64,000 nt of DNA from an uncultured Candidatus Poseidoniales archaeon (GTDB taxonomy: Archaea > Thermoplasmatota > Poseidoniia > Poseidoniales > Poseidoniaceae): NCBI GenBank assembly GCA_902625885.1, contig CACODE010000008.1, positions 1 through 64,000 of the forward strand, read 5' to 3'. Shown here piece after piece: positions 19,949 through 23,284 of this stretch (the first letter of the stretch is position 1; every line of letters begins with the position of its first letter). A program made the position numbers and the translations under genes. The notes beneath the pieces were generated by a model. The model made no database searches, was not told the origin of the DNA, and was given only the letters and a program-made list of their open reading frames with translations.

Positions 19949-21028
19949 ATGCGCCGGACCTTCGTTTCCAACGAGCGGAACGAAGGTGCGCTCACCGCTG
20001 TTATTGAGTTTCTCTCGGCCTTTACCCTCTTTCTGATGATCCTCACCGCTTTTCTCTCTCTGGCACAACTCCAAATGGGCTCCAACGACCCGGATGTGGA
20101 CCGCCTGGACCGTGCGGCTTCGCTCGGTTTGGACCGTTTAACCTCCGGAGAGGGGTGGTACGTCCCCATGGGGGATGGCTTGGACTACGCCAACTCCACC
20201 TCGGATTGGCACCACTATTCAGCCGAGGCCCTCCACGAAGGCCGAGTTCAACCTGGGCTTGTAATGAACCACCGTCTTGATGCGGATCGAATCCACGCCC
20301 TGCACAACATCACCGAAGAAGGCATGGCGGTAGGCCTCGGTCTCGATGCCGATATGAGCCTCCATCTGAGCATTCAGGTTGTTGAAAGTCAACAGGTCAA
20401 TCGAAGCCAAACCTACCTCTTTTACGGCGGGACGGAGCGAAGTTCTGCACCTTCAAGCTCAACCTCCTATCGGTCGTTTCAGCAAGACGGTGAACTGCTT
20501 CGAGTTGTCCTTGAAGTTCACGATGGCGGACGGAAAAATGCTGTGTTGCACTTGACAGAGGTTGTCTCGAGACCGTCACAATCCGGCCCGGAATGGATCG
20601 AAATGCGCAACCCCAACGATTTCGCCATCCCGCTCAAAGGGTGGTCGCTCAACCACACCTCAAGCGGACAAGCCACGAACATGCTGTTCCAATCGGGCGT
20701 CGTTTCTGGCCAATCCATTGCCCTGTTCACGGGGGACGCTTCTTCCCAAGAAGTTGGCAATGCGACACACATCGTCGATCTCGGACTGCGCGGTTTCTTG
20801 GGTGTTGGGCAACTCAGCGGTCTTGGCGACGGACAAGGGGTTTTGATTCTTAGGTACACCCAACTTGACGAGGTGACGCCTGCCGACGTTATGCGAGTGG
20901 AATGGGGCGGTGACACTGGAACGTTTCCGGTCACCGGACAATCGCTGAGTTGGGACGGTACAGACCGGTTCAGTGCAGATTCATGGCGTTTGGAGGACAA
21001 CCCGTCACCGGGTGCCGTGCCTTCCTGA
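19949..21028 (+). CDS. Pilin-like protein with lamin-tail domain
   Basis: The frame is open from TTG 19862, and ATG 19904 is also possible. I prefer ATG 19949 (MRRTFVSNERNEGALTAVIEF), which puts a type IV pilin-like N-terminus first: short basic leader, then one hydrophobic helix of about 20 residues. The ectodomain ends in a lamin-tail-like domain (LHLTEVVSRPSQSGPEWIEMRN, followed by PLKGWSLNH), a fold found in extracellular and nuclear-lamina proteins. It precedes three KaiC-like genes on the same strand. Function is probably a surface or pilus component. Start and class are uncertain. Confidence 0.65.
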   Translation: MRRTFVSNERNEGALTAVIEFLSAFTLFLMILTAFLSLAQLQMGSNDPDVDRLDRAASLGLDRLTSGEGWYVPMGDGLDYANSTSDWHHYSAEALHEGRVQPGLVMNHRLDADRIHALHNITEEGMAVGLGLDADMSLHLSIQVVESQQVNRSQTYLFYGGTERSSAPSSSTSYRSFQQDGELLRVVLEVHDGGRKNAVLHLTEVVSRPSQSGPEWIEMRNPNDFAIPLKGWSLNHTSSGQATNMLFQSGVVSGQSIALFTGDASSQEVGNATHIVDLGLRGFLGVGQLSGLGDGQGVLILRYTQLDEVTPADVMRVEWGGDTGTFPVTGQSLSWDGTDRFSADSWRLEDNPSPGAVPS

Positions 21029-21099
21029 TTCTGCTCGTCGGGGGTTGCTTCCGTCCAAACACTTCATCAACCCGGGGCTTTTCCTTCGGTACGTTCCCC

Positions 21100-21882
21100 A
21101 TGCAACCCACCAGCGTTTACACCCGAGACCGTTGCGTGACGGGTATCCACGGATTGGACGAAATTCTCAGGGGCGGTATCCCGTACGGTTCGACGGTTTT
21201 GGCAGCAGGAACCTGCGGCTCCGGTAAAACCACCTTAGGCATGGAATTTCTTGTTCGTGGTGCCTTGGCCGGTGAAGCATGCGCTCACTTTACGGCCACG
21301 GAGCCTTCCGTTAAGTTGCTAGAGAACATTCGGCAGTATGCGTTTTTCGACATGAACATGGTCGATACCGGCCTGATCAACGTTTTTGACATGGACGTGC
21401 TGTATTCATGGCTCGGGCTGGAGAAGGCGTCTTTTGATTTGGATGACGTGCACGCCCTCATCAAATCCATTGTTGATATTGTGAACACCATCGGGGTCAC
21501 CCGTCTGGTGATCGATTCGGTCACCACCTTGTGTTACAAAATCAAATCCGAGCAGCTGATACGGGATTTCCTTTTCACCTTGGGCAAGAAATTGGCAACA
21601 CTCGGCTGCACCACCATCCTCATCTCCGAAATCACATCGGCCACCGAAAACGCTCACTGGTCCTCCTTCGGTGTTGAAGAGGCCATCGCAGACGGCATCA
21701 TCGTCATGGGCGATTCCGAACGCATGGGGCACCTTCTGCGGTTCCTTCAGGTTGTCAAAATGCGAGGCACGGCTCACAGCCGTGCGAAACACGCCATTGA
21801 ATTGACGCCACTGGGCGTGATGCTCATCCCGATGCTGAAATGGGGCGCTTCGAACGATAACACAAACCGTTGGGGTGCCTAG
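21100..21882 (+). CDS. KaiC-like ATPase with intact P-loop
   Basis: ATG 21100 gives 260 residues beginning MQPTSVYTRDRCVTGIHGLDEILRGGIP, the typical N-terminus of single-domain KaiC/RadA-like ATPases. Walker A is GTCGSGKTT (Lys43). HFTATEPSVKLLENIRQYAF is the KaiC strand-2 region and RLVIDSVTTL is Walker B. Relatives include ArlH and archaeal signalling KaiCs. It is followed 2 bases later by a second RecA-fold gene, then a third, with no P-loop in either. This is probably the only ATP-binding member of the trio. Confidence 0.87.
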   Translation: MQPTSVYTRDRCVTGIHGLDEILRGGIPYGSTVLAAGTCGSGKTTLGMEFLVRGALAGEACAHFTATEPSVKLLENIRQYAFFDMNMVDTGLINVFDMDVLYSWLGLEKASFDLDDVHALIKSIVDIVNTIGVTRLVIDSVTTLCYKIKSEQLIRDFLFTLGKKLATLGCTTILISEITSATENAHWSSFGVEEAIADGIIVMGDSERMGHLLRFLQVVKMRGTAHSRAKHAIELTPLGVMLIPMLKWGASNDNTNRWGA

Positions 21883-21884
21883 AC

Positions 21885-22469
21885 ATGTTCGAACTTGACC
21901 AGCGTATCGCCGAACAACTCACGCAAGTTTCCCTCGGAAGTTCCGTTCAAGTGCGCATGAGTTCAGCGAATGCCTTTGCCGTCACGGCCAGCACCATGGT
22001 TCCCCTGATGCAAATGTTCGAGATGGGCGGTGTTTACATTTCTGCTAGCCGAGGCGCAGTAGAGATCATTCAGGCTTTCGAGGCCATCGGTGTTGACGTC
22101 TCGGGTATCCATTTCCTTGACCTGGTCTCCTCGGGCGTTTTGGGGGGAACCGATGTCCCCTACGCCAACATCACGTTTGTTGACAGCCCCATCATGCTGG
22201 AGAGCATCATGTTGCGAACGCTGTACACGCTTCGAACCGTGAACAACCAACGAAATTTCGTGTTTTTGGACAGCGTCAACGCCTTGGCCATTTACAACGA
22301 TGACAGGATGTTGGCAGAATACCTTCACACCTTCATCAACACCTTCCGTCAACGTGAGGTGCTCTCCGTTATTCTCAACGTTCCAGACCAGACCCCGCCG
22401 TTGGTTCTTGCGAACCTTGACACGTACTGCACGGATCTGGTCGACAGGGGACAAGTGGTTCTTCTTTGA
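21885..22469 (+). CDS. RecA-fold/KaiC-like protein without a P-loop
   Basis: ATG 21885 gives 194 residues. The strand pattern and Walker B-like RNFVFLDSVNALAIYN resemble KaiC-family ATPases. The expected P-loop position reads VRMSSANAFAVTAS, which lacks the Gly-x-x-x-x-Gly-Lys pattern, so ATP binding is unlikely. It begins 2 bases after the intact KaiC-like gene and ends 8 bases before the third family member. It is probably a structural partner in a hetero-oligomer. Homology is inferred from pattern, not from a search. Confidence 0.65.
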   Translation: MFELDQRIAEQLTQVSLGSSVQVRMSSANAFAVTASTMVPLMQMFEMGGVYISASRGAVEIIQAFEAIGVDVSGIHFLDLVSSGVLGGTDVPYANITFVDSPIMLESIMLRTLYTLRTVNNQRNFVFLDSVNALAIYNDDRMLAEYLHTFINTFRQREVLSVILNVPDQTPPLVLANLDTYCTDLVDRGQVVLL

Positions 22470-22477
22470 GGTGATGC

Positions 22478-23284
22478 ATGATGGAACGAAAGATGACCTT
22501 TGACCCAGAAGACGAGGAATTTTTTGGAACCGTCGGCTCGTTCGGCGTTCCAAAATTCGACAACGAAATGCGTGGTGGCGTCCCGCGCGGGTTTACGATG
22601 ATGGCGTTTACCGAAACGGGCTCGGGCAGCGAACTGTTTGCAAAGCAATTCACCTCGCCGGCTGAAGAACCTGAGAACACGCTCTACATCGCCACCGATG
22701 AAGGGCAACAAGAGATCATTCGCATCTTCAAGAAGTACGACTGGCCGCTCGATATCAACGTCAGGACGATTGGAGAAGAGTACAACGCCAACGTCTTGGA
22801 ACGGGAGTTGCTAGCGAGTCGCTATCGTTTGGAAGGGTTTCAACTGGCCGATATTCAACGCCTGGCGCAAACCCGATTTGTTGACGATAGCAACCAGGAT
22901 TACCTGACCGAGGTCACCAACGAAATCATGGGTCTAGGTCCATATTTCCGGGCGGTTCTCGACAACTTGGATTTCTTTTTGCAACGTGAAGACCCCGCCC
23001 GCGTCGTCTCCATGGTCAGAATGCTCCAAGCGCATGCTCAGATGGTTCGTGGCCTCCTGATGATCTCCGTCTCAAGCGACGGCTTGGACCCCTCCATCAA
23101 GCAAGAGCTTTCCTCAATCGCTGACATGGTTCTCTCGTTCAAGGTGCGAACCATCGGGTCCGATTTTGAAAATTCAATGATCGTCTCCAAGTTCAGAAAC
23201 GCCCCTGAAAACCTGAAAATTCTGGTGTTCAGGGTTACGCCAGAAGAAGGGATAACGCCCGAAACCGTCGAGCGCATCGCTTGA
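22478..23284 (+). CDS. KaiC-like protein with degraded P-loop
   Basis: This 268-residue protein starts after GAGGTGA; the second ATG at 22481 has slightly better spacing. The N-terminal GVPKFDNEMRGGVPRGFTMMAF aligns with the KaiC family, but Walker A reads TETGSGSEL with Lys and Thr replaced by Ser51 and Glu52. Later segments (LLMISVSSDGLDPSIKQELSSIADMVLSFKVR) match the KaiC C-terminal half. It closes a three-gene KaiC-like set. An ATP-free regulatory or scaffold subunit is likely. Confidence 0.72.
   Translation: MMERKMTFDPEDEEFFGTVGSFGVPKFDNEMRGGVPRGFTMMAFTETGSGSELFAKQFTSPAEEPENTLYIATDEGQQEIIRIFKKYDWPLDINVRTIGEEYNANVLERELLASRYRLEGFQLADIQRLAQTRFVDDSNQDYLTEVTNEIMGLGPYFRAVLDNLDFFLQREDPARVVSMVRMLQAHAQMVRGLLMISVSSDGLDPSIKQELSSIADMVLSFKVRTIGSDFENSMIVSKFRNAPENLKILVFRVTPEEGITPETVERIA

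Follow-up and report, generated by a model that had tools for sequence, protein, structure and literature searches.

What role could three adjacent genes for KaiC-like proteins, only one of which carries a P-loop, have beside the gene for a pilin-like surface protein? The question is posed by a 64,000-nucleotide stretch of DNA from an uncultured Candidatus Poseidoniales archaeon (contig CACODE010000008.1 of assembly GCA_902625885.1; hereafter the window), in which a gene for a protein with a pilin-like N-terminus and a lamin-tail domain (LTD) is followed by three genes that we call K1, K2 and K3, together the trio. An initial annotation saw in their products a hetero-oligomeric complex of one active and two structural subunits. 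We give an even chance to the reading that the trio consists of old KaiC-fold paralogues acting jointly in the cytoplasm as an accessory to type IV pili and not to the archaellum; it would probably be a regulator or motor accessory of such pili that has not been described before. The observations on which we build are the folds, the residues, the conserved gene order, the co-distribution and the gene linkage.

One complete and two degenerate KaiC-fold proteins

The three genes begin at positions 21100, 21885 and 22478 and are separated by 2 bases (K1-K2) and 8 bases (K2-K3), exactly as first annotated (Table 1). The annotated state of their P-loops, intact in K1, absent from K2 and stripped of Lys and Thr in K3, also held in the window and in aligned orthologues. 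K1 matches KaiC at E 1e-39, and its Walker A motif, Walker B Asp, E68 and K-M-R finger are invariant in all 22 aligned Poseidoniales proteins. The P-loop is absent from 23/23 aligned Poseidoniales K2 orthologues, in which the Walker B Asp is kept; K2 carries a signature of its own, S-P-x-M/V-L-E (S101, P102, L105, E106 and D129 are invariant in 18/18), has a shortened C-terminus and has no finger strand. Its score against the Pfam family PF06745 (KaiC), 21.4 bits, falls under the cut-off of 26.6 bits, which the K2 of locus L240 passes at 33.1 bits.

The Walker A Lys of K3 is missing in 25/25 aligned Poseidoniales orthologues and Glu or Asp replaces the Thr; the Walker B Asp and the finger, which reads F-R-N after its Lys, are kept. 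In f3, a sister family within the class that is probably Marine Group III, the Lys of K3 is still present and Glu stands in the Thr position, as is also the case for the K3 of L238, which is cut. Phylum-wide, the K3 finger has K238, N241 and P243 invariant in 17/17 sequences, with R240 replaced by Lys in some, and in a HMMER alignment its K-x-R falls on the K-M-R of the KaiC CII domain. In KaiC, this Lys-Arg pair reaches the nucleotide of the neighbouring subunit. From these residues, K1 is predicted to be the sole member of the trio able to bind and hydrolyse ATP normally. We rejected the idea that K2 and K3 are decaying pseudogenes, because nonsynonymous divergence (dN) between pairs of trio orthologues is low (0.02-0.16) against a saturated or near-saturated synonymous divergence (dS; saturated in every K3 pair and in some of the other pairs, with no LTD pair computable).

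To place the degenerate members, we used AlphaFold2 single-chain models of K2 and K3 built from orthologue alignments (predicted local distance difference test, pLDDT, 82.6 and 79.9, respectively). In VIA comparisons, with scores within 1 Z unit counted as tied, the best matches of K2 were SSO2452 and PH0284 (Z 16.6; 2w0m, with root-mean-square deviation 2.5 over 165 aligned residues, and 2dr3 both reach this score), KaiC (16.0) and Methanocaldococcus ArlH (15.3). K3 matched KaiC 7s65 at Z 21.2 (root-mean-square deviation 3.0, 203 aligned) and Sulfolobus ArlH 4yds at Z 20.7. On these predicted structures we regard the fold of K2 and K3 as settled, and as KaiC/ArlH-like; the common fold of the three that the initial annotation had presumed was thus borne out, K1 being placed by its sequence only. 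Profile-profile alignment with hhalign paired K3 with K1 at 86.8% probability and gave nothing usable for K2 against K1 or K3 (number of effective sequences, Neff, ~1.7). The K2 profile found no convincing match among PDB sequences and one weak, unrelated match. All three are single-domain proteins, without the tandem CI-CII arrangement of cyanobacterial KaiC. A plasmid search with K1 returned 204 records, each a distant KaiC-like protein of <60% identity, and one with K2 returned no match.

The pilin-like lamin-tail protein upstream of the trio was confirmed as well. Its N-terminus has a short, basic leader, followed by a hydrophobic helix whose core reads G-x-L-T-A-V-I-E-F-L, of which A-V-x-E-F-L is invariant in 17 aligned orthologues; judging by eye and from recall, we take this leader and helix to be of the type IV pilin type. 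The window protein scores 29.8 bits against the lamin-tail family PF00932, under the cut-off of 34.3 bits, which the homologue upstream of the trio in L239, a locus from a different family of the phylum, exceeds at 44.3 bits.

The gene order is conserved and the trio is old

We assembled 105 Poseidoniales loci, 25 from genomes and 80 from records titled Poseidonia, Poseidoniaceae, Poseidoniales or Euryarchaeota; the counts cover loci with enough flank, leaving aside two at contig ends that lack K3. Where K3 is held, K2 lies in order in 101/101 loci and K1 in 98/98, and LTD is upstream of K1 in all 96 scorable loci. The linkage of the four genes is thus conserved across the order, in keeping with the initial annotation. 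In a single genome K2 is in two pieces (G089:C97:15091-15770), from a frameshift or an assembly error.

A module confined to Poseidoniales was considered and rejected: a K2 profile matched 184/292 genomes of the class, including 19/21 of f3, and 211/389 genomes (90/155 genera) of the phylum. K1, K2 and K3 stand in order in 10/10 fetched f3 loci, in none of which an LTD match was found. We also fetched 20 loci from out-of-class families: 14 have the complete trio in order, one has its K3 cut by the contig end, four have K1-K2 without K3 and one has K2 alone. In a FastTree phylogeny of 57 proteins, from which the K1 proteins of loci without K3 were left out, K1 (17), K2 (18) and K3 (18) fall into separate clades (support 0.979, 0.998 and 1.0). 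Because of this separation we regard the trio as old: as judged from the tree, it is ancestral for the sampled families and not the outcome of repeated local duplication.

The loci without K3 also differ in K1. In the four of them (L243, L246, L252 and L255), the K1 finger reads K-M-K or K-M-A and the F/Y-G-V-E-E stretch is missing as well; in the 15 out-of-class loci that have K3, counting the cut one, K1 keeps K-M/V-R. The loss of the finger Arg where K3 is missing hints that K1 and K3 work together.

Distribution of the trio, type IV pili and the archaellum

Next to gene order, we compared gene content in 145 Poseidoniales genomes from 21 genera of two families, f1 and f2. K3 was found in 84 genomes, K2 in 85, Pilin_N in 88, T2SSF in 101 and a PilB ATPase relative in 102. 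At genus level, K2, K3 and Pilin_N share one and the same set of 14 genera out of 21, namely all ten of f1 and g14, g16, g18 and g21 of f2; in the other seven f2 genera each was found in 0/57 genomes. K2 or K3 is present in 72/72 f1 genomes and in 14/16 genomes of the four f2 genera, both genes being absent from G131 (78% complete) and G143 (75% complete). Close relatives of PilB (G000:C6) occur in 16/16 genomes of these four genera and in 65/72 of f1, partial frames counted, and archaellum-only genera have only ArlI, which is ~35% identical to PilB. In f3, T2SSF and Pilin_N are each found in 20/21 genomes and K2 in 19/21; an ArlJ-type frame of ~600 amino acids was not found there, and ArlH was not searched for in that family.

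The archaellum was tried as the main partner of the trio and rejected. Taking E below 1e-40 as a strong ArlH match, we found one in 13/57 genomes of the trio-less f2 genera, all in g13 and g20, in which ArlH and just one T2SSF gene are present and the trio is not. These ArlH-positive genera show that possession of an archaellum is not enough for the trio to be present. In the opposite direction, the trio and pilus genes are present in the four g16 genomes and the one g21 genome, none of which has a strong ArlH match. The source genome has its own ArlH elsewhere (G000:C27), beside archaellin-like genes and an ATPase gene (L004), and its trio does not lie in an archaellum operon with ArlI and ArlJ. 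Against the NCBIfam ArlH equivalog (cut-off 215 bits) K1 scores 34.9 and K3 50.5 bits, on a scale where 0/145 genomes reach the cut-off and the true ArlH of the source genome scores 128.8 bits.

Linkage to pilins and pilus loci

A pilin of the PF07790 type lies directly downstream of the trio in 8/90 Poseidoniales loci, all from g9, g16 and g18, and the three of these eight pilins that were checked in Pfam all pass PF07790. Outside the class, a pilin is directly downstream in 9/20 loci; eight exceed the Pfam cut-off, and the ninth, in L255, was recognized by motif only. Two f2 genera have a prepilin-peptidase-like gene at the locus: in g16 (L058 and L059) it precedes LTD, with PF06847 at 26.7 bits in L059, under the cut-off of 29.9, and in g14 (L063) it follows K3 on the opposite strand and is over the cut-off at 30.4 bits. 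Altogether, the trio shows the linkage to or co-distribution with pilins, an assembly ATPase and a platform protein that would be expected of a type IV pilus component. Of the suggestion in the initial annotation of a tie to surface-structure assembly or signalling, linkage and co-distribution thus strongly support surface-structure assembly in the form of type IV pili, and the archaellum drops out.

Several further observations concern the pili themselves. Poseidoniales have a second, Tad-like pilus locus (L076:7607-10164 and neighbours), with two small T2SSF-type proteins, an adjoining protein of 412 amino acids, two uncharacterized proteins upstream and a pilin-type gene further along. In many Poseidoniales genomes, PF07790 is found over the cut-off inside giant frames of ~4500 to 5100 amino acids (examples in Table 1), which are possibly pilin-anchored adhesins. 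The gene for a PilB-type ATPase is interrupted by one internal TAG in G031:C47, G045:C14 and G007:C102, reflecting sequencing error, decay or recoding.

Neighbouring genes

Upstream of LTD, a divergent gene like that for the 983-residue surface protein of the window is present in 77/79 Poseidoniales loci, the exceptions being L058 and L059; its product is a likely surface partner of the trio block. The downstream genes for a methyltransferase and an A-type ATPase were rejected as a fixed part of the block, since their position varies between genera; the methyltransferase gene lies downstream on the same strand in 73/90 loci. In the f3 loci (L216-L225) the trio is preceded by genes for an OPT oligopeptide transporter and for a conserved 141-residue protein without a Pfam family. 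In two loci K2 and K3 are separated by an extra gene (L239:8294-9397 and L237:3751-4875). The L239 product scores 24.6 bits against the Methanogen output domain MetOD1 (cut-off 23.8), with no single stretch passing, and the extra gene is possibly a sensor feeding the trio.

Table 1. Features of the trio locus in the window, and examples from other loci and genomes (positions with a handle)
Feature	Position	Strand	Remarks
Divergent surface-protein gene, 983 amino acids	16839..19790	-	secreted and C-terminally anchored (by eye); no Pfam family at cut-off
LTD, pilin-like N-terminus and lamin-tail domain	19949..21028	+	359 amino acids from ATG at 19949; PF00932 29.8 bits (under cut-off)
K1, KaiC-like ATPase, catalytic motifs complete	21100..21882	+	260 amino acids; PF06745 177.9 bits
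Walker A of K1, GTCGSGKTT	21208..21234	+	from sequence; G-x-C-G-x-G-K-T-T in 22/22
K-M-R finger of K1	21757..21765	+	in register with KaiC KLR (CI) and KMR (CII), HMMER; 22/22
K2, KaiC-fold, P-loop-less, C-terminus shortened	21885..22469	+	194 amino acids; AlphaFold2 and VIA
K3, KaiC-fold pseudo-ATPase, helical insert at ~residues 98-151	22478..23284	+	268 amino acids; PF06745 58.8 bits; AlphaFold2 and VIA
Degenerate Walker A of K3, TETGSGSEL	22610..22636	+	Lys to Ser/Ala/Met/Ile and Thr to Glu/Asp across orthologues
K-x-R-N finger kept in K3	23189..23200	+	aligned onto KaiC finger
f3 trio neighbours, examples	L216:6089-6514 and L216:3903-6032
PF07790 in giant frames, examples	G144:C9:18273, G121:C12:49109, G025:C2:116356, G077:C40:83258, G030:C22:24960

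Proposed role and alternative explanations

We propose that K1 would hydrolyse ATP for the trio. K3, with its own site lost and its K-x-R finger kept, would be placed next to K1, whose active site it would complete or gate, and K2 would be a P-loop-less structural subunit or an inactive adaptor. Such a mixed complex would target PilB and PilC, the assembly ATPase and platform of the pilus, in the way that ArlH acts on ArlI, and would thereby switch or time the assembly of filaments with pilin and pilin-like lamin-tail subunits. In its most specific form, which we put forward tentatively and rate at somewhat less than even, the model is a hetero-hexameric KaiC ring of three paralogues, one catalytic and two non-catalytic, that does for non-archaellum type IV pili what ArlH does for the archaellum, with the K3 finger reaching K1 in trans, an archaeal parallel to the Elp456 ring of Elongator. 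It predicts that the K3 finger matters for the ATPase of K1.

Several points weigh against a pilus accessory. No pilin adjoins the trio in the window or in 82/90 Poseidoniales loci, and the PilB locus of the source genome is on another contig than the trio. In f3 a Pfam scan identified the OPT transporter upstream of the trio in L216. The genera are not independent, and their shared absences may be a few shared losses; likewise, the four loci without K3 may be a single lineage, making the change in K1 one or few events. The pilus-gene searches covered genomes of the class, and the K2 count of 211/389 covers the whole phylum. Both PilB3-like and Tad-like non-archaellum pilus loci co-occur with the trio, and both are candidates for the pilus that it would serve. 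Finally, we infer that the three proteins physically assemble, and likewise their stoichiometry, the PilB contact and which way the control runs.

KaiC homologues are described as motility regulators in the accessible part of PMC13286277, and K1 with inactivated K2 and K3 could similarly form a signalling hub, comparable to CirA (archaellum, Haloferax) and GvpD (gas vesicles), that senses state and controls pilus expression or number from outside the motor. K2 and K3 do resemble the haloarchaeal DUF7090, DUF7125, DUF7504 and GvpD profiles, and the extra gene of L237 and L239, with its MetOD1 match in the latter, would fit a sensory input. However, a Pfam scan found no DNA-binding or receiver domain in the trio proteins, and the trio is closely linked to structural pilins in out-of-class loci; we consider such a hub possible and rather unlikely. 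It could also be that K1, which alone holds every catalytic motif, finger included, forms a homohexamer to which K2 and K3 bind as separate partners with no mixed ring, an arrangement that would suit the short C-terminus of K2 and its missing finger strand. This is hard to square with the one-to-one conservation and order of the three genes across the phylum, with a finger in K3 that is usable only against a neighbour and with the degradation of K1 motifs in loci without K3, and we think it unlikely.

Two further explanations would leave pili aside. RecA-fold relatives of the trio include RadA, RadB and RecA, and the K3 of two f3 loci exceeds the cut-off of the Pfam family PAXNEB (Elp4) at 33.2 and 30.9 bits, so that a housekeeping role, in DNA repair or in RNA modification like that of Elongator Elp456, might be envisaged, with the pilin link being historical. 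Generic KaiC-like proteins score 20-22 bits with PAXNEB, however, which makes the match unspecific, and a specific kinship with Elongator was not supported. No Elp entry is among the best 60 of 115 PDB matches; nor are Elp chains among the best 50 structural matches listed for the K2 and K3 models, which by itself excludes nothing. As the trio is absent together with pilins in 7/21 genera, we consider a housekeeping role improbable. A light or day-night timer like cyanobacterial KaiC might be imagined in surface-ocean archaea, for which diel transcripts of Marine Group II (MGII) are mentioned in the accessible text of PMC6769238. Yet the 260 amino acids of K1 form just one KaiC domain, without a tandem second one, and the K2 family is present in many other families of the phylum, which makes a timer very improbable indeed.

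We return, then, to a type IV pilus accessory. KaiC and ArlH, the KaiC-like switches that are known best, are homomeric, and a phylum-wide set of one active and two inactive members would show a division of labour within the family. The trio would also offer a way into how some of the most common surface-ocean archaea switch their adhesion pili, as distinct from the archaellum.

Comparison with known systems

We found no paper describing a three-gene KaiC set with pilins in a literature search outside whose scope were subscription papers and supplements. The claim of the initial annotation that no described system is laid out in this way stands in that sense; it does not extend to KaiC-pilus links or inactivated KaiC homologues, both of which are already published, and it is the trio arrangement itself that would be new. 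Degenerate KaiC domains acting with active ones, as proposed for the trio, are reportedly also a feature of the KaiC-like signalling hubs with inactivated KaiC homologues (iKaiC) in Makarova 2017 in mBio. Inactivated KaiC domains are likewise named in the accessible part of PMC5847659, where that 2017 study is cited. Makarova 2016 (PMC4858521) reports ATPases of the KaiC family next to type IV pilus loci of archaea and regards them as likely regulators; the systems in its accessible text have KaiC families or a pair of KaiC and a DEATH-like protein, whereas the trio has two degenerate members. For the archaea studied here, the accessible text of PMC6461757 places archaellum genes in all Poseidoniaceae and in half of the Thalassarchaeaceae genera and mentions no type IV pilus system.

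Elongator provides the precedent for a mixed ring of degenerate RecA folds: in the available part of PMC11050213, Elp4, Elp5 and Elp6, each with a RecA fold and a degenerate P-loop, are three distinct proteins that make up a single hetero-hexamer. That system is eukaryotic and serves tRNA modification, and no specific sequence link between it and the trio was found. The other comparison is with ArlH (FlaH), a KaiC-fold hexamer that binds ArlI and, when ATP-bound, stimulates it (PMC8978795, accessible part). ArlH shares the KaiC fold with the trio, is the top-ranked solved relative of K3 alongside KaiC and serves a motor related to type IV pili. However, ArlH is one protein encoded in the archaellum operon and the trio is three, which are missing from archaellum-only genera and also occur where no strong ArlH match is found.

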